Positions 17,391-32,018 of a stretch of 33,620 nucleotides of DNA are shown piece after piece. This DNA is from Cyanobacteria bacterium M_surface_10_m1_298 (GTDB lineage: Bacteria; Cyanobacteriota; Cyanobacteriia; PCC-6307; Cyanobiaceae): the NCBI GenBank assembly GCA_016882485.1, contig VGPT01000014.1:1-33620 (forward strand), in the 5' to 3' direction. The notes beneath the pieces are model-generated. The model was not told the DNA's origin. It did not search any database and was given only the letters and a program-made list of their open reading frames with translations. Positions within the stretch are counted from its first letter, which is position 1, and each line of letters opens with the position of its first letter. The translations under genes were made by a program, and so were the position numbers.

Positions 17391-18527
17391 ATGCAAGTCT
17401 CAGAGCGGTTTTTAGCCCTGCTTGAGCAGCAGCTGGCCCAATTCACAGATCGGCCTGACCTCCGTTCGCTGGTGGTGTATGTCGCCCTTCCGAGCGACAG
17501 CGGTGAGCCCTCCTTGCTGGCCATCGGCCACTGGCCCAGCAGCTTGGCCCTGCCCAGCAGGCGCCCCGATGCCACTCCCGCCTCCGAGCAGGACACCCGC
17601 CGCTGGCTCGCCCTCCGTGACGGATCCCTGCTGCTGGGGGCCCTCCGAATCGACAGTCAGTGCTGGCCGTGGCCGGGCGACTTCAGGCAACGGCTGGAGG
17701 CGACCGCCCAATGCCTCACCGAAGCGCTCAAACTCGACCTGGAGCAGCAGCGTTTGGGCCGTCAGCTCGCCCTGCGGGACGACCAGCTGAAGCTGCTGGT
17801 GCATCAATTGCGCAACCCCCTGGCGGCCCTACGCACCTTCGGACAGCTGCTGCGCCGGCGCCTGGATGGAGACAGCTCCAATCAGGATCTGGTGGACAAC
17901 CTGCTGGCTGAGCAACGGCAGCTGAACCGCTATGTCGATGCGATCGATCAACTGACGCAAAGCCCAGCCCTACCCGCGAGCGCATCCCCGCTGCAGCCGC
18001 TGCTGCTGCCACCGGCGCTCAACAACACAAGGCAAGAGCCCTTGCCGCAGGTTCTTGAACCGCTGCTGGAGCGCGCCGCCGCCACCGCTGCCCTGCAACA
18101 GAGGCCATGGCATCCACCGAAGGGCCTGCCGGATCTGCCCTGCCCGGCGGCCGCCATCTCCGAGATCCTGGCCAACCTGCTGGAGAACGCCTTCCGCTAC
18201 AGCCAAGCGGGAGGTCCGATCGGACTGCACTGCAGCGAACAGTCCGGAGAAATCCAGCTCACGATCTGGGATGGCGGACCGCCCATCCCCGCAGCAGAAC
18301 GGGACACGGTCTTTGCCAAAGGGGTGCGCGGCAGCACCGGACAGGCGCTGGCGGGTAGCGGCCTGGGGCTGGCCTTGGCTCGAGACCTGGCCGAAAGCGT
18401 GGGGGGCCGGTTGGAGCTGATCGTTCCGGCGTCCCGCATCGACCCCAGCCTGAGCGAGGCGGGCAATGGCTTTCGGCTCACACTCCCAGCCGCAGCAAGA
18501 GACCCAGCAGCAGCAAGGTCCAACTAA
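17391..18527 (+). CDS. Soluble sensor histidine kinase
   Basis: The 378-residue protein has an N-terminal sensory region (about 1-120, GAF-like in size but not confidently assigned) and a kinase core. H-box: H138 in LLVHQLRNPLAALRTF, the likely phosphorylation site. N-box: ILANLLENAFRYS (259-271; N262, N266). G1: IWDGGPPIP (D294). G2: GSGLGLALA (322-330). No membrane helix is present, so it is probably cytoplasmic. No response-regulator gene is nearby, making it an orphan kinase. The ATG at 17391 is followed by the family-like sequence. The last 50 bases overlap the 3' end of cobS on the other strand. The Pro/Gln-rich insert at about 190-250 between H- and N-boxes is unusually long and low in complexity. 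Confidence 0.9.
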   Translation: MQVSERFLALLEQQLAQFTDRPDLRSLVVYVALPSDSGEPSLLAIGHWPSSLALPSRRPDATPASEQDTRRWLALRDGSLLLGALRIDSQCWPWPGDFRQRLEATAQCLTEALKLDLEQQRLGRQLALRDDQLKLLVHQLRNPLAALRTFGQLLRRRLDGDSSNQDLVDNLLAEQRQLNRYVDAIDQLTQSPALPASASPLQPLLLPPALNNTRQEPLPQVLEPLLERAAATAALQQRPWHPPKGLPDLPCPAAAISEILANLLENAFRYSQAGGPIGLHCSEQSGEIQLTIWDGGPPIPAAERDTVFAKGVRGSTGQALAGSGLGLALARDLAESVGGRLELIVPASRIDPSLSEAGNGFRLTLPAAARDPAAARSN

Positions 18528-20641: not shown

Positions 20642-21376
20642 CTAGCCGCGGCGCAGCACGGCCCAGGCAAATTCAGGTAGCGCCAGCATCCGGCGCCAGC
20701 GGCTCGGCTCCTGAATCAAGCGATACAGCCATTCGATCTGCAACCGGCTCATCCATTGCGGCGCCCGTTGCTTGGTGCCTGACCACACGTCAAAGCTTCC
20801 GCCCACTCCCATCCACAGACCCGGCTGCCCTTGGTGCATCCGCTGGATCCAGGTCTCCTGCCGCGGCACGCCCAAGGCCACCAGCACCAGATCGGGTTGG
20901 GCCTGCCGCAGTTGCTGCTCCAAGCCCGGCCACTGCTCAGGGCTCTGATACCCGTGCAGGGTGAAAGCAAGGTTCAAGCCAGGGATCTCGGCGCAAAGGC
21001 GCGTTGACACCAGGGCCATCACCTCCGGGCTCGCCCCCACCAGGGCCACCCGCCAGCCCCGCTGCGCCGCCTGCTCCAGCAGGGCCCGGGCCAGTTCGAT
21101 CCCTGGGCTACGCCGCACCCGATAGCCCCGCCGCTTCAGAGCCCAGACCACCCCTGCGCCATCGGGGATCACCAGGTCTGCGGCAGCGATGGCGGCCCCC
21201 AACTCCGGGTTCGCCAGGGCCGCCATCGTCATCTCAGCGTTGAGGGTCACGATCTGACCGCCCCCGCGCTGCTTGAGCTCCAGGGCCGCGAGCAGCACGT
21301 CATCCGCCACGGCCACCTGCACCCCCAGCACCTGGGTCACCCTCCAGGAGGGGGTCTCAGCAGCGTCAGTCGCCAT
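20642..21376 (-). CDS. WecG/TagA/CpsF family glycosyltransferase
   Basis: This 244-residue protein belongs to the GT26 family, which adds ManNAc-type sugars to lipid-linked precursors of wall or surface polymers. Signatures are VTLNAEMTMAALANPEL (43-59; N46, E48), VIPDGAGVVWALKRRGYRV (69-87; D72 is the equivalent of the TagA catalytic Asp), VALVGASPEV, VALGVPRQETWI and the C-terminal IEWLYRLIQEPSRWRRML, a membrane-association region in this family. The ATG at 21376 is chosen; the frame is open to 21616 but the extra 80 residues are Cys-rich noise lying over the next gene. A WecA-type enzyme is encoded at 5934-7037, so both steps of one lipid-linked glycan pathway may be in this window. Confidence 0.9.
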   Translation of the reverse strand: MATDAAETPSWRVTQVLGVQVAVADDVLLAALELKQRGGGQIVTLNAEMTMAALANPELGAAIAAADLVIPDGAGVVWALKRRGYRVRRSPGIELARALLEQAAQRGWRVALVGASPEVMALVSTRLCAEIPGLNLAFTLHGYQSPEQWPGLEQQLRQAQPDLVLVALGVPRQETWIQRMHQGQPGLWMGVGGSFDVWSGTKQRAPQWMSRLQIEWLYRLIQEPSRWRRMLALPEFAWAVLRRG

Positions 21377-21440
21377 CGATGCTGTCTTGAGGAAGGCCGC
21401 GCGAGAGAATCTATGGCCGGCCTCACGGCAACACCAGCCC

Positions 21441-24400
21441 ATGACCCTCAGCAGCGCCCCCGTGGCGAATACCGCCGCACCGCTGCAGCTGAGTGCCGCT
21501 GATGCCTGGCAGCGCCTCAACGAACTGGACCGACAGATCGAGCAGGTGGTGTTGCAGAGGCAGCATCCGATCACCGGTCTGTTGCCCGCCAGCACCGCCA
21601 ACAACGTGCACGGCAACTACGGCGACGCCTGGGTGCGCGACTGCGTCTACTCGATCCAATGCGTTTGGGGGCTGGCCCTGGCCCACCGGCGCCTGAGCGG
21701 GGCCTCCAGCCGCGTTTATGAATTGGAGCAGCGGGTGCTGCAGCTGATGCGCGGCCTGCTCAACGCGATGCTGCGCCAGGCCCACAAGGTGGAGCGCTTC
21801 AAGCACAGCCTCGCTCCGCTCGACTGCCTGCACGCCAAATACGACACCGGCAGCGGTAATCCGGTGGTGCCGGACGACGGCTGGGGGCACCTCCAGCTCG
21901 ATGCCACCGCCCTGTTTCTGCTGCAGCTGGCCCAGTTGACCCGCTCAGGCCTGGTGGTGGTGCAGACCAGCCACGAGCGCGACTTCATCCAAAACCTCGT
22001 GTATTACGTCGCCCGGGCCTACCGGGTGCGCGATTACGGGATCTGGGAGCGCGGCGACAAGGGCAACCACGGCATGCCGGAGCGCAACGCCAGCTCGATT
22101 GGCCTGGTGAAGGCGGCTCTGGAGGCCCTGGAGGCGCTCGATCTCTATGGCCCCCATGGCAACGGGCAGTGCACGTTGCACATCCCCCACGACGCGATCG
22201 TGCGGCTGCGCCGCGCCCTCACGAGCCTGCTGCCGCGTGAATCCGCCAGCAAAGAAGTCGATTCAGCCTGCCTGTCGGTCATTGGCTACCCCGCCTGGGC
22301 GGTGGAAGATCCCGCTCTGGTGGAGCGCACCCGAGCCAAGATCCGCACCGATCTGGGCGGCCCCTACGGCTACAAGCGTTTCCGCCGCGACGGGCATCAG
22401 ACCGTGGTCGAAGACCACACCCGTCTGCACTACGAGCGCGAGGAGCTGGCCCAGTTCGAGCACATCGAGTGCGAATGGCCGCTGTTTCTTGCCTATGAGC
22501 TGATCACCGCCTGCTGCGAGGAGCGCTGGGCGGAAGCCTGGAGCTGGCGTGAGCGGCTGCGCAAGTTGGCCGTGGAGGTCGATGGAGTCGCCCTCCTGCC
22601 CGAGCTCTATCTGGTGCCGAAGGGGTCAATCGAGGCCGAACGGCGCCTCCCCGGCAGCCAGGAGCGCCAGGCCAACGACAACGTGCCTCTGCTCTGGACC
22701 CAGAGCCTGACCTGGCTCAGCGATCTGATGCTGATGGGGCTCCTGGAGCCGGAACAGCTCGACCCGAGCAATCGGCGTTTGGGCAGCCAGCTCGGCGCGG
22801 AAGAGGTGTTGGTGAGCTTTGTTCCCGCACGGGAATCCATCGCCGCGGCCCTGGAAGCGGCTGGGCTGTCGGTGACCCGCCCTGGCACCGCCACCATCGC
22901 CAGCTCCAAAGAGCTGGGAGAGCGCATGGCTCAGGTGGGCGCCAACGCCCGCCTGGGGCTAAGCGGCCATCCGCCACTGCGGATGGAAACCATGGCGACC
23001 GCCAGGCTCTATCGCCAGGGAGGCGAAACCCTCGCCTTCCTGCCGGCGGTTCTCGAGGAGAGCACTTTCTACCTCTCCGATGACCCGGAGCAGCTGGTGG
23101 ATGCGGTGGCCAACGAAATCAGCCAGCTGCAGCGCCACTGGAGAGGCAGTGGGTCACCCCTGTTGCTGATCCCTGTGGAGGAGGGTCCCTTCCTGCGCAG
23201 CCCCGAGGCCTTCCTGCGCCTGGGGGAAACCCTGCGCTCTGGCCTGCTGGATGGGGTGGCGGTGCAACTCGACAGCCTCGAGGCCCTCAAAGAGCAGGCC
23301 TGCTGGGCTGAGCTGCCGAAGGGCACGGGCCAATCCGGCAGCACCACTGCGGCGAAGCCGGCCGTGCTCCTCCCCAGCGCGACCGATGCCAAACCACTCA
23401 CCGCCGAAGAGGAGCAGGAGCTCGAGGAATCGCCGCTGGAGGCTCTGTTGGAGCGCCTCTGGCAGAGCGCATCTCTCGAGGAGCAGGCGGAACTGCTGGA
23501 GCAGGTGGTGCGCCGCTTGGGCCTGACGGCCATGCTCACCGGGCCGAAGGGCAAGGCCTCCCCCAAGGCCCTGCTGGAGGAGGCCTACCGCCGCGCCCTC
23601 AAGCAGGGCAACTGGAATGTGGTGCGGCGCTGCGCGGGCTCCCTCGGCCTGGTGCACCCCCAGTTGGAAGACGCACTCACCGATCTGCTGGTGCGCCAGA
23701 AGCAGGTGGTGGTGGGCCGGAACTACACCAATGACTCCCTGATCACCCAGCCCACCGGCAGCCTGGCCATCGCCGCGATGATCCAGCGCTACAGCGGAGA
23801 AGACGGGCGCGAATGGGTGCTGCAGCAGGAGTTGCTGCTGGCCCTCGACGGGCTGGCCCGCCGCGACCCGAACCTGCTCAGCGGCAGCCTCACCCTGCAA
23901 CTGGGTCAATTGCTGCTGCTGCTCACCAGCGAACTCGCCGGTGAGCGCAACCTCTGTCCCAGTGAGGCTTTTGAAGCCCTATGCGAGCTGCCGCCCCACA
24001 GCATTGGCCGGCGCCTGCAACAGGTTCTGAGCGATGTAGAGCACGCCAAGGCAGCTCTCCAACGCAAGGAGCAGCTGCATCTGAGCGGGCGGGTCAGCTG
24101 GGAGGCCCCCGAACCCCTGGAGGAACTCAACAAGAGCGGTGACTGGCTGAAGCACCGCGAGCGGATGGGTGCCCTCCAAAACGTGCCCCGCAACTTCCAC
24201 CCCGGTATCTGGAGCCTGCTGCACCACTGCCAAGGCCTGGTGATCGGCGACAAGCTCGAGCGCCGCAACCGGCTCGAGAGCGCCCCACTGCTCAATGAGA
24301 AAACCCCCGGCGAGCGCAACTTCGCCATCCACGTGGAGCACCTGCTCAGCAAGATCGAGGCCCCCGAATACCGGCGCCTCTGCATCGAGACCCTGGTCAC

Positions 24401-24641
24401 CCTGATCGCCTTCGTCGATGCGAACCCCGATGTTCGCCTCGAGGATGACCTGGTGCTCGATGTAGTGATCGGCCACGCCGTGCGGGTGGGCTGGCAGCAA
24501 CGCCACCCGGAGCACGATGCGGCGGACTACCCCAGCCACAAGGCGGAAGCCTGGGATCAGTTCTACCGCTCATCCCCGGCCGATTGCCGCCGCTGGCAGC
24601 TGCTGGCGCTCAAGGAACTGGCGGAGCTGCAGCCGGCCTAA
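21441..24641 (+). CDS. Phosphorylase-kinase-alpha/beta-like protein with GH15 (glucoamylase-like) domain
   Basis: The protein has 1066 residues. The N-terminal (alpha/alpha)6 GH15-like region (about 30-430) contains HPITGLLPAS, YGDAWVRDCVYSIQCVWG, WGHLQLDATALFLLQLAQL, DYGIWERGDKGNHG (E203 is the likely general acid), NASSIGLVKAALEAL and ECEWPLFLAYE. As I recall the animal phosphorylase kinase alpha sequence, these align nearly word for word with it. The likeness continues: SLEEQAELLEQVVRRLG (about 678), a stretch near 715-770 and the C-terminal FHPGIWSLLHHCQGL and HVEHLLSKIEAPEYRRL (about 915-975). So the whole PhK alpha/beta architecture seems present except the prenylated tail. Database labels usually say GH15 glucoamylase. 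Substrate and role are unknown; a link to glycogen use is likely. ATG 21441 is preferred over an upstream frame start at 21273, which overlaps the divergent gene. Confidence 0.9.
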   Translation: MTLSSAPVANTAAPLQLSAADAWQRLNELDRQIEQVVLQRQHPITGLLPASTANNVHGNYGDAWVRDCVYSIQCVWGLALAHRRLSGASSRVYELEQRVLQLMRGLLNAMLRQAHKVERFKHSLAPLDCLHAKYDTGSGNPVVPDDGWGHLQLDATALFLLQLAQLTRSGLVVVQTSHERDFIQNLVYYVARAYRVRDYGIWERGDKGNHGMPERNASSIGLVKAALEALEALDLYGPHGNGQCTLHIPHDAIVRLRRALTSLLPRESASKEVDSACLSVIGYPAWAVEDPALVERTRAKIRTDLGGPYGYKRFRRDGHQTVVEDHTRLHYEREELAQFEHIECEWPLFLAYELITACCEERWAEAWSWRERLRKLAVEVDGVALLPELYLVPKGSIEAERRLPGSQERQANDNVPLLWTQSLTWLSDLMLMGLLEPEQLDPSNRRLGSQLGAEEVLVSFVPARESIAAALEAAGLSVTRPGTATIASSKELGERMAQVGANARLGLSGHPPLRMETMATARLYRQGGETLAFLPAVLEESTFYLSDDPEQLVDAVANEISQLQRHWRGSGSPLLLIPVEEGPFLRSPEAFLRLGETLRSGLLDGVAVQLDSLEALKEQACWAELPKGTGQSGSTTAAKPAVLLPSATDAKPLTAEEEQELEESPLEALLERLWQSASLEEQAELLEQVVRRLGLTAMLTGPKGKASPKALLEEAYRRALKQGNWNVVRRCAGSLGLVHPQLEDALTDLLVRQKQVVVGRNYTNDSLITQPTGSLAIAAMIQRYSGEDGREWVLQQELLLALDGLARRDPNLLSGSLTLQLGQLLLLLTSELAGERNLCPSEAFEALCELPPHSIGRRLQQVLSDVEHAKAALQRKEQLHLSGRVSWEAPEPLEELNKSGDWLKHRERMGALQNVPRNFHPGIWSLLHHCQGLVIGDKLERRNRLESAPLLNEKTPGERNFAIHVEHLLSKIEAPEYRRLCIETLVTLIAFVDANPDVRLEDDLVLDVVIGHAVRVGWQQRHPEHDAADYPSHKAEAWDQFYRSSPADCRRWQLLALKELAELQPA

Positions 24642-25630
24642 ATCGGCTCCGGCAGGGTCATGCAGATGTTGGCCTGCTCCACACACTGCTCGATTAGATC
24701 AGCCAGCAACAGGGCACGGGAGGCCTGCGGACCATCCACCGCCGGCTTCTCCTCGCCGCGCACGCACTGAAGGAAGTGCTCCAATTCCGCCACCAGGGGA
24801 TCCACCGGAGAGGTGCTCACCTCCTCAATGAAACCGTCGTTGCGGTAAAGCAACTCCCCGTGATCAGCACTGAACGACTGGTTGGTGCGGCGGTGGATCT
24901 GAAGACTGCGGTTGAGGAAATCGGTTTCCACCAGCGCGCTGCGGCAGTGGGCCGAGAGGCTGCGGATCTTGCGGTGGGCCATCTTGCTGGCCGTGAGGCT
25001 GGCCACCACGCCGTTGGCAAAACCGAGCGTGGCGTTCACATAGTCGATCGGGCCATCCGCACTGCGGCCCCCAGCAGCCGCCAGACGCACCACCGGTGAG
25101 CGCGCCAGCTCGAGCACCAGATCGATGTCATGGATCATCAGATCCAGCACCACCGACACATCATTGGCTCGGTCGGGATTGGGGCTGTGACGGCGGGCTT
25201 CCAGCACCACCACCTCCTCGTTCGCCACCACCTTCACCAGTTCGCGGAAGGCTGGGTTGAACCGCTCGATGTGCCCCACCTGCAGCAGCCGACCAGCGGC
25301 CTTGGCGGAGCGGATCAGATCGGAGGCTTCGTCCTGGGTGGCGGCGATCGGCTTTTCGATCAGCACGTGCACGCCGGCGTCGAAACAGGCCATGCCAACC
25401 CGGTGGTGCAGCAGGGTCGGCACCGCGATACACACCGCCTCCACCTCGTTCAGCAGCTCTGCGTAGTCGGGAAACCAACGGCAACCGAACTGCTCAACCG
25501 CCAACTGACCGCGGTGGGGATCCGGGTCCGCGACCCCCACCAGCTCTGCATCCTTGAGCAGGCTCAGCACCCGGGCGTGGTGCCAGCCCATGTTGCCGAT
25601 TCCAATCACCCCAACGCGGACAGGCTTCAT
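24638..25630 (-). CDS. Gfo/Idh/MocA family NAD(P)-dependent oxidoreductase
   Basis: This 330-residue protein has an N-terminal Rossmann domain with VGVIGIGNMGWHHARVL (6-23) and the family signature EKPIA (K93), plus the C-terminal alpha/beta domain with IHDIDLVLEL (H167, D168), where the substrate-handling His-Asp pair sits. These enzymes act on sugars, inositols, UDP-sugars or tetrapyrroles, and the substrate cannot be named from sequence; UDP-HexNAc dehydrogenases of surface-glycan pathways are plausible given WecA/WecG-like genes in the window. The ATG at 25630 gives MKPVRVGVIGIG; a TTG at 25642 is the alternative. It follows the CorC-type gene by 24 bases on the same strand, and its stop overlaps that of the PhK-like gene (CTAA). 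Confidence 0.9.
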   Translation of the reverse strand: MKPVRVGVIGIGNMGWHHARVLSLLKDAELVGVADPDPHRGQLAVEQFGCRWFPDYAELLNEVEAVCIAVPTLLHHRVGMACFDAGVHVLIEKPIAATQDEASDLIRSAKAAGRLLQVGHIERFNPAFRELVKVVANEEVVVLEARRHSPNPDRANDVSVVLDLMIHDIDLVLELARSPVVRLAAAGGRSADGPIDYVNATLGFANGVVASLTASKMAHRKIRSLSAHCRSALVETDFLNRSLQIHRRTNQSFSADHGELLYRNDGFIEEVSTSPVDPLVAELEHFLQCVRGEEKPAVDGPQASRALLLADLIEQCVEQANICMTLPEPI

Positions 25631-25654
25631 GGCGTTGGACAACCGGCGCAGTGA

Positions 25655-30490: not shown

Positions 30491-30551
30491 CCCGCAACGC
30501 TAAGTGGCCATCACGAGTAGCAGCATGGGAGGGCGACCATGCTCCGCCCCG

Positions 30552-32018
30552 ATGGCTTCAGCGCCCCTGCCCCTGGAGGCCAGCCCGATCGCCTTCGGCA
30601 CCGATGGCTGGCGCGGCATCCTCGGGGTCGACATCACCGTGGAGCGCCTGCTGACGGTGGCCGCGGCCTCCGCACGGGAGCTCGAGTATTCGGCACCCGA
30701 GAGGCTGAACAGCCGAGAAATCGTGATCGGCTACGACCGGCGTTTCCTCGCCCCCGAGCTCGCCGAAGCGATCTGCAGCGCCGTGCGTGGCGCCGATCTG
30801 GTGCCGGTGCTGGCCGAAGCGCCAATCCCCACCCCCGCCGCCAGTTGGGCCGTGGTGGAGCGCCAGGCCCTGGGGGCCCTGGTGATCACCGCCAGCCACA
30901 ACCCCCCCGAGTGGCTGGGGCTCAAGATCAAAGGCCCCTTCGGCGGCTCGGTGGAAGGCGACTTCACCAAGCGGGTGGAGCTGCGGCTGGAAGCTGGCGG
31001 AGTCAGTGTGCCGATCCCTGGCGAAACCCTGCGCTTCGATGCCATGGGCACCTACCTGGCGGGCCTCAAAGCCAAGGTGGATACTGCGGCCCTCAGCGCC
31101 GGCCTGGAGCGCTTGGGCCTGCAGGTGATCGTGGATCCGATGCATGGCTCCGCCGCCGGTGGGCTGAGCCGTCTGCTGGAGGGGGCCGCCGCCAGTGATC
31201 ACCTGCGCGAAATCCGCTCCAACCGCGATCCGCTGTTTGGCGGCAACCCACCCGAGCCCCTGGCGCCCTATCTGCAGGAGCTGATCGCCGAGGTGCGCGC
31301 TTCCACCCTGGCCGGCCGGCCGGCGGTGGGGATCGTCTTCGACGGCGACGGCGACCGCATCGCCGCCGTGGATGAACACGGCCGCTTCTGCAGCACCCAG
31401 CTGTTGATGCCCCTGTTCATCGATCACCTAGCCCGCGCCAAAGGGCTGGGCGGTTCGGTGGTGAAAACCGTGAGCGGCTCCGATCTGATGCAGCTGGTGG
31501 CCGAAAACCTGGGCCGCCCGGTGCTGGAAAAAGCGGTGGGCTTCAAGTACATCGCCGCCGAGATGCTCGCCAGCGACGTACTGGTGGGCGGTGAGGAATC
31601 GGGCGGTGTGGGCTTCGGAGGGCACCTGCCGGAGCGCGATGCCCTCTACGCGGCGTTGCTGTTGATCGAGGCGTTGGTAGAGGGCGGCAAGCCCCTGGGC
31701 GAGCGCGTCAGTGAATTGCAAGAGCGCTGCGGCGGCGCCGCGGCCTACGACCGCCTCGATCTGCGCCTGCGTGACATGGCCACCCGACAGCGCCTGGAAC
31801 AGTTCCTGGCCGCCACGCCCCCGCAGGAGGTGGCCGGCGTGGCCGTGCAGGAGGTGATCACCACCGACGGCGTGAAGCTGCGGCTTGGACCCAGCCACTG
31901 GCTGATGCTGCGCTTCTCGGGCACCGAGCCCCTGCTGCGTCTCTACTGCGAGGCCCCCAGCCAGGCCCGCGTAGCCGAGGTCCTGGCCTGGGCCCGTCAG
32001 CTGGCGGAGAGCATCTGA
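30552..32018 (+). CDS. Phosphoglucomutase/phosphomannomutase family protein
   Basis: This 488-residue alpha-D-phosphohexomutase shows all four signatures: the phosphoserine loop TASHNP (S115), the Mg2+ loop FDGDGDR (D264, D266, D268), the sugar-recognition loop GEESGGVGF and the phosphate-binding FSGTEPLLRLY near the C-terminus. It interconverts hexose-1- and hexose-6-phosphates, feeding glycogen or surface-polysaccharide synthesis; glucose versus mannose preference is not certain, though GEESG favours glucose. The ATG at 30552 matches the family start (FGTDGWRGILG follows); an upstream frame start at 30504 is less likely. The stop and the rdgB start overlap as TGATG. Confidence 0.94.
   Translation: MASAPLPLEASPIAFGTDGWRGILGVDITVERLLTVAAASARELEYSAPERLNSREIVIGYDRRFLAPELAEAICSAVRGADLVPVLAEAPIPTPAASWAVVERQALGALVITASHNPPEWLGLKIKGPFGGSVEGDFTKRVELRLEAGGVSVPIPGETLRFDAMGTYLAGLKAKVDTAALSAGLERLGLQVIVDPMHGSAAGGLSRLLEGAAASDHLREIRSNRDPLFGGNPPEPLAPYLQELIAEVRASTLAGRPAVGIVFDGDGDRIAAVDEHGRFCSTQLLMPLFIDHLARAKGLGGSVVKTVSGSDLMQLVAENLGRPVLEKAVGFKYIAAEMLASDVLVGGEESGGVGFGGHLPERDALYAALLLIEALVEGGKPLGERVSELQERCGGAAAYDRLDLRLRDMATRQRLEQFLAATPPQEVAGVAVQEVITTDGVKLRLGPSHWLMLRFSGTEPLLRLYCEAPSQARVAEVLAWARQLAESI

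Follow-up and report, generated by a model that had tools for sequence, protein, structure and literature searches.

The window, as we call the whole 33,620-nucleotide stretch analysed here, encodes a protein of 1066 amino acids on its forward strand (21441..24641, stop codon included; ATG start), which its open reading frame, Pfam, a PDB sequence search and Foldseek together mark as a relative of the α and β subunits of phosphorylase kinase (PhK). All features named within this gene lie on the same strand. An N-terminal GH15-like domain, D1 (residues 24–432; 21510..22736), is recognized by Pfam Glyco_hydro_15 (PF00723, E 4.4e-57), its limits being our own. It is followed by a D2-like region (residues 433–625; 22737..23315), delimited approximately from PhK alignments, by a mostly helical middle region (residues 626–834; 23316..23942), delimited approximately from the PhK alignment and a structural model, and by a KPBB_C domain (residues 835–1064; 23943..24632; PF19292, 4.6e-93). 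An existing Pfam model already picks up this family. The window holds 105 open reading frames of at least 100 amino acids, many of them shadow frames, and 28 of these besides the PhK-like gene were put through Pfam. None of the 28 encodes a Pkinase-family kinase or a phosphorylase. The original prediction had the window without any kinase or phosphorylase gene; Pfam does find a histidine kinase at 17391–18527, about 3 kb from the PhK-like gene. A phosphoglucomutase-family gene, also assigned by Pfam, lies about 6 kb from it, at 30504–32018.

The protein is homologous to human PhK α and β along its full length and with the same domain order. At E≤1, the PDB sequence search with the whole protein returned only PhK α (2.8e-169) and PhK β (3.8e-136). 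The original prediction had extended the resemblance into the middle and C-terminal regions and was to be abandoned if residues 430–1066 showed no similarity to PhK; instead, these residues alone match PhK α (4.3e-44) and PhK β (1.8e-42) among solved sequences at E≤10, and nothing else falls below 0.5, the next matches being two HMG-box proteins (E 0.53 and 0.66). The C-terminal 242 residues by themselves also find PhK α (8.8e-14) and PhK β (8.4e-12); residues 614–759 and 969–1048 of PhK α fall outside the displayed alignments. The near-identity of short motifs is likewise borne out, with WGHLQLDAT and GIWERGDK identical in human PhK α, SLEEQAEL paired with its SLQEQADI, and FHPGIWSLLHHCQGL and HVEHLLSKIEAPEYRRL paired in the PhK alignment with FYQKVWKVLQKCHGL and HVESVLNRVPQPEYRQL, respectively. 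An AlphaFold2 model of the protein finds PhK α/β chains at Foldseek ranks 1–8 (TMq 0.66–0.71) over about 1080 columns (1072–1111), which supports the whole-chain fold; the whole-chain rmsd of 14–15.5 Å leaves the domain arrangement unconfirmed. The next seven ranks are glycosidases of the 5Z3/7C2 series, whose alignments span about 440 columns and so match D1 in length. Because pLDDT falls below 50 at residues 54–59, 147–149, 200–210 and 314–336, which surround the active site and include E203, the geometry of that site cannot be read from the model.

Two sets of D1 residues bear on function. E203 (22047..22049), the likely general acid, aligns with PhK α E185, and E388 (22602..22604), the likely general base, aligns with PhK α E371. 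Each is kept in all 110 distinct cyanobacterial sequences, as are R66, D67, W148 and W346, so that the predicted retention of the acid holds across the family and extends to the base. The second set corresponds to a nucleotide site. In human PhK β, as described in the accessible text of the structure report, ADP lies between D1, D2 and D4 with R211, Y213, R214 and R274 around its diphosphate, and its presence accompanies a slight shift of D2–D5 (PMC10978961). By alignment, the first three of these residues are R192, Y194 and R195 in the window protein (22014..22025) and the fourth is R255 (22203..22205). Conservation is 106/110 for R192, 109/110 for Y194, 109/110 for R195 and 110/110 for R255, and all four occur together in 105 of the 110 sequences, this comparison covering the phosphate-contacting residues, with the adenine pocket outside it. 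The other five sequences carry Q or H in the clamp, which we count against an ADP-sensing reading. The β-type clamp had no part in the original prediction.

Since human PhK α has lost three of the four clamp residues (A, Y, K and H at these positions in the alignment) and human PhK β has a lysine in place of the catalytic base, the cyanobacterial protein appears to unite an α-type sugar site and β-type ADP-clamp residues in one chain. What the present analysis newly shows, at the level of aligned residues, is this pairing of both GH15 glutamates (110/110) with the complete clamp (105/110). Like human muscle PhK α (PDB 8JFK/8JFL), the protein shows whole-length homology, the PhK domain order and both glutamates, and PhK α D1 shares 50% identity with that of the window protein, with values reaching 65% for other cyanobacterial members. 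PhK β shares the whole-length homology and the four-residue clamp, is 39% identical to the window protein in D1, and differs there beyond the lost base, with K, Q, Y and F in place of W64, R66, W148 and W346, respectively, all four of which are common to PhK α and the cyanobacteria. Among D1 positions at least 95% conserved across 39 rows, 38 have their cyanobacterial residue in α and not in β, and 10 have it in β and not in α; the 10 include the three clamp arginines, with a hand-computed probability of about 0.007 for all three to fall on the β side. GH15 glucoamylase-type glycosidases (e.g. PDB 5Z3A/7C25) match the fold over the size of D1 and have the acid and base glutamates, which align in 12/12 ordinary GH15 proteins of the phylum, but they have no KPBB_C part, and 0/12 have all four clamp residues. 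One PhK-like fragment, in which clamp and acid are retained and an aspartate aligns at the base, was excluded from this set of 12.

The surroundings of the gene offer little guide to function. A WecG-type gene is divergent from it at 68/71 Cyanobiaceae loci, and a phosphoglucomutase-family gene is nearby at 15/71 Cyanobiaceae loci and 0/42 others. Neighbours are thus kept within Cyanobiaceae and hardly outside, and we therefore drew no functional link from genome context. Apart from the phosphoglucomutase-family gene about 6 kb off, no glycogen gene is a close neighbour in the window, which we count against a role in glycogen metabolism. Co-occurrence with glycogen phosphorylase was also set aside as uninformative, because in a family-level sample the phosphorylase is near-universal (143/151 genomes) whether the PhK-like gene is present (74/151) or not. 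No glycogen phosphorylase match was found in three genomes that carry the gene and are 90, 82 and 74% complete (G436, G455 and G487). When compared with full-length animal chains, both GlgP proteins of the window genome begin to align only at about chain residue 24–34, a local-alignment start being weak evidence. Ser14 of animal glycogen phosphorylase, which we take to be the site phosphorylated by PhK, precedes that start. In a proteomics study, the available text has "glycogen phosphorylase kinase" in the abstract and names glgP in the results (PMC6716455).

We propose that the protein is a stand-alone, kinase-free regulator of the PhK α/β family, sensing both carbohydrate and energy status, a function to which we would give an even chance. 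A regulator of glycogen metabolism that senses glucan and ADP is the most likely form of such a protein, and an ADP-gated glucan hydrolase is its main rival. In the proposed mechanism, α-glucan chain ends or a malto-oligosaccharide would bind D1, and ADP would bind the D1/D2/D4 cleft, where human PhK β binds it. Bound ADP is expected to shift D2–D5, and the moved surface could then contact a partner in glycogen metabolism, most simply glycogen phosphorylase. Glycogen use would thereby follow both glucan supply and ADP level, making the protein a candidate regulator of night-time glycogen use in cyanobacteria.

It is also possible, though rather unlikely, that the protein is an active exo-acting GH15 hydrolase of glucans or oligosaccharides, which would directly supply glucose taken from glycogen or from some small glucoside and in which D2–D5 would serve oligomerization and ADP-controlled gating. 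The invariance of E203 and E388 suits a hydrolase no less than it does a sensor. R66, D67, W148 and W346 are invariant too, residues of a kind that binding-only proteins often lose, and the glycosidases that follow the PhK chains in Foldseek point the same way. Against this stands a profile of ten cyanobacterial D1 sequences, which retrieved from solved sequences PhK α/β and one chance-level match (E 0.68) and no working GH15 enzyme, along with the D1 tree, in which eight ordinary GH15 proteins sit on a long branch (100/100). Human PhK α, moreover, keeps the glutamate pair, yet the accessible text of the structure report describes no glucoamylase activity of human PhK on maltose, isomaltose or glycogen (PMC10978961). 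A role as subunit of a bacterial kinase complex, with an unrecognized or other-family kinase (two-component or atypical) in place of PhK γ, is improbable. In its favour, the protein is built like a kinase regulator, the histidine kinase lies close by, and Pkinase matches occur, 2–4 per genome, in six congeners. The window's own genome has none; because that assembly is 93% complete and its congeners have matches, its absence is not telling alone, and we turned to three complete genomes (single contig, 99–100% complete; G205, G257 and G266). All three carry the PhK-like gene, together with one glycogen phosphorylase each, and have a single weak Pkinase match apiece (E 7.8e-4, 6.2e-4 and 4.9e-4), whose cut-off status we inferred, rows with better values such as 6e-5 being marked below cut-off. 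The PhK-like gene thus occurs in complete genomes that have no good Pkinase-family match, in line with the suggestion that it acts without a γ subunit. Features of the animal complex are missing as well: the PhK α γ-contacts K588 and Y593, given in the accessible text of PMC10978961, are T597 and L602 in the window protein and variable across 39 rows, and the C-terminal CaaX farnesylation motif of human PhK α and β has no counterpart, with Cys at −4 in 0/114 rows.

Acquisition of the gene by cyanobacteria from a eukaryote, or contamination, is the least probable alternative, and we consider it very unlikely. The family exceeds the cut-off in 101/386 sampled genomes of the phylum, its neighbours within Cyanobiaceae are conserved, and same-family rows mostly cluster in the D1 tree. 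When rooted, this tree joins PhK α and β in one clade (99/98) placed among the cyanobacteria. In favour of a eukaryotic source, human α D1 shares 58–65% identity (median 63%) with the 42 rows from outside Cyanobiaceae, more than those rows share with Cyanobiaceae sampled one in six (53–64%, median 58%), and a topology test on D1 did not reject a single cyanobacterial clade (p-AU 0.52). Nor was a clade of cyanobacteria with α to the exclusion of β rejected at 0.05 (p-AU 0.087). The trees included 32 of the 39 rows and 8 or 4 of the 12 ordinary GH15 proteins, and their eukaryotes are human α and β only, both on long branches. Among control genomes, Synechococcus elongatus matches the family and the other 13 do not, and searches of the phage, plasmid and viral collections yielded no member. 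In a contig scan, the best 80 loci among the matches listed are all cyanobacterial by title; five of them, with no closed reading frame, are absent from the 114 rows.

If the stand-alone regulator is as we propose, it also suggests an origin for animal PhK, which we offer tentatively as a doubtful but concrete model for the division of work between its subunits. A single cyanobacterial-type chain, kinase-free and sensing both glycogen ends and ADP, would directly control an enzyme of glycogen metabolism, glycogen phosphorylase or some other, by means other than phosphorylation; once the gene had passed to eukaryotes, its duplication would have left the glucan site to α and the ADP site to β, with kinase and calmodulin added. 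The accessible text of the 2024 human PhK structure paper holds that what the glucoamylase-like domains signify still calls for investigation (PMC10978961), and a bacterial relative with conserved sugar-site and ADP-clamp residues, from organisms in which the kinase can be missing, makes this question testable in one easily handled protein. Among the matches listed in the literature searched, where subscription journals are thinly covered, we found no discussion of a cyanobacterial PhK α/β relative. That human α D1 is closer to the non-Cyanobiaceae rows than these are to the sampled Cyanobiaceae represents remarkable conservation for a domain of unassigned function. One locus with the look of a natural fission between D1 and D2 (L070) was rejected as such, because its DNA reads as a shift of frame, with the homology otherwise unbroken.

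The open reading frame at 21441-24641 (+ strand) encodes a protein of 1066 residues with a Pfam Glyco_hydro_15 match (4.4e-57) and, at residues 835-1064, the phosphorylase b kinase C-terminal domain KPBB_C (4.6e-93). Among PDB sequences at E<=1, its only matches are phosphorylase kinase (PhK) alpha (2.8e-169) and beta (3.8e-136). Residues 430-1066 searched alone match PhK alpha at 4.3e-44 and PhK beta at 1.8e-42, the next values being 0.53 and 0.66; the homology therefore spans the full length, in line with the original prediction of a whole-length PhK alpha/beta-like protein. This homology is not strictly a discovery, because the Pfam KPBB_C model detects the protein at once. NCBIfam holds no good model for it (best, trehalase, 0.006), and our literature search found no paper on a cyanobacterial PhK-like protein. 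What would be new for the specialist is the combination of predicted alpha-type and beta-type sites, together with the kinase-free setting.

An AlphaFold2 model built with 48 cyanobacterial sequences (mean pLDDT 82.2, pTM 0.79; active-site loops <50) has PhK alpha/beta chains as its eight best Foldseek matches in the PDB (E 7e-58 to 1e-52; query-normalised TM-score 0.66-0.71 over 1072-1111 columns). Glycosidases follow, aligned over ~440 columns, the length of the GH15-like domain D1. In the suggested comparison with PhK structures, the model does not reproduce the domain placement, since the whole-chain rmsd to the PhK chains is 14-15.5 Å.

A study of human PhK (PMC10978961) names E185 and E371 of PhK alpha as the catalytic pair and places R211, Y213, R214 and R274 around the ADP diphosphate in PhK beta. 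We aligned human PhK stretches from the PDB-search alignments with 114 cyanobacterial rows, 110 of them distinct. E203, the likely GH15 general acid that was predicted to be kept, and E388, the putative base, are glutamate in 110/110 distinct rows. The clamp residues R192, Y194, R195 and R255 are conserved in 106, 109, 109 and 110, and all four in 105. Human PhK alpha, in contrast, has A, Y, K and H at the clamp positions, and human PhK beta has K at the position of the base. Taken with the per-site counts, these residues indicate that the predicted ADP clamp is common to the cyanobacterial family and PhK beta, and the predicted catalytic pair to the family and PhK alpha. Ordinary GH15 proteins of the phylum (n=12) align glutamate at both catalytic positions in 12/12, with the complete clamp in 0/12 and its tyrosine in 0/12; arginine stands at two clamp positions in three of them and at one position in another, in a divergent alignment. 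D1 positions were then counted where conservation across 39 cyanobacterial rows reaches 95% and neither human row has a gap. Both human subunits retain the cyanobacterial residue at 99 of these positions, only alpha does so at 38, only beta at 10, and at 8 it is missing from both. The clamp arginines are three of the ten beta-alone positions, and the tyrosine is retained by both subunits. For random placing of the three arginines among the 48 single-subunit positions the chance is ~0.007 (hand computation), the clamp positions having been taken from PMC10978961 and not picked from this alignment.

Other features of animal PhK differ: its CaaX-type C-terminal motif occurs in 0/114 cyanobacterial rows, and the gamma-contact residues K588 and Y593 of PhK alpha are not conserved. 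The genome search proposed with the original prediction yielded its phosphorylase, in two copies, and no Pkinase match; this zero is less telling because the assembly of the window's genome is 93% complete and matches do occur in six congeners, at 2-4 per genome. Firmer evidence on kinase absence comes from three single-contig genomes (99-100% complete) that carry the PhK-like gene, G205, G257 and G266, whose sole Pkinase matches are at 7.8e-4, 6.2e-4 and 4.9e-4; cut-off flags are not shown for these rows, and rows near 6e-5 are flagged below cut-off. Across the Cyanobiaceae, 131 of 151 genomes have Pkinase at E<=0.001 and 70 above cut-off. The alignment of both glycogen phosphorylases of the window's genome with full-length animal chains starts at about residue 24-34, and the phosphorylated serine of the animal enzyme presumably lies before that start.

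Given the observed architecture, the residue conservation and, in some genomes, the lack of a good kinase match alongside the gene, the best reading is a protein that senses glucan ends and ADP and works without a kinase. Both ligands would bind the protein, which would then change conformation and may act by contact on a glycogen enzyme. Its main rival, an ADP-gated and catalytically active GH15 hydrolase, draws on the perfect conservation of both catalytic glutamates, but human PhK lacks glucoamylase activity on maltose, isomaltose and glycogen according to PMC10978961.

Of 386 genomes sampled from the phylum, 101 have a KPBB_C match above cut-off (102 with E<=0.001 as the limit), as do 74 of the 151 Cyanobiaceae genomes; Synechococcus elongatus is the only carrier among 14 control genomes. 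Of 20 listed among the 77 family genomes lacking KPBB_C, many incomplete, 19 have sizes of 1.2-1.9 Mb, with G390 the exception at 2.2 Mb; the phylum scan includes two larger ones, G141 (2.6 Mb) and G264 (2.4 Mb). Every locus in the best 80 of at least 558 relatives from the genome scan is cyanobacterial by title, the closest being Vulcanococcus (84% identity). A tblastn search at E<=1e-5 detected no PhK-like match among 50,697 phage records or 72,556 plasmid records, and viral contigs, scanned twice, were likewise negative.

A WecG/TagA/CpsF-type glycosyltransferase gene (20642-21616, - strand) diverges from the PhK-like gene, a pairing present at 68/71 Cyanobiaceae loci and at 2/40 loci outside the family with 1 kb of upstream DNA (L045, L055). 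The convergent Gfo/Idh/MocA oxidoreductase gene (24638-25642, - strand) overlaps the PhK-like gene by 4 bases at the stop codons. About 6 kb downstream lies a phosphoglucomutase/phosphomannomutase-family gene (30504-32018, + strand), matched at 15 Cyanobiaceae loci, many loci having flanks too short to judge.

It is plausible that the eukaryotic PhK gene derived from cyanobacteria. Rooted with eight ordinary GH15 proteins, and with human alpha and beta as the eukaryotes, the D1 tree joins the two subunits in one clade (99/98) nested in cyanobacteria (98/95). Constraining the cyanobacterial rows together fits equally well (p-AU 0.52), a clade of cyanobacteria and alpha without beta survives the 0.05 level (p-AU 0.087), and alpha's placement is unsettled when beta is left out. 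The full-length unrooted tree sets cyanobacterial and human groups apart (98/97), with long human branches. Over D1, 42 non-Cyanobiaceae rows are 58-65% identical to human alpha (median 63%) and 53-64% to a one-in-six Cyanobiaceae sample (median 58%), named-locus rows being assigned to Cyanobiaceae from title and identity.

The phylum scan gives G197 two copies of the KPBB_C gene, both full-length PhK-like (L052, L053) with catalytic glutamates and clamp intact. On a distant branch of the phylum, G016 encodes a very long GH15-containing protein (L193, 1035 aa frame) whose D1 motifs are not PhK-like. The homologue in G215 (L070, 7407-10645) comprises two open frames joining at the D1/D2 border, which looks like a frame change, not a true split. 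In G051, a PhK-like D1 fragment (L187, 488 aa frame) has WERGNKIN and the clamp intact and may be a family copy in decay.
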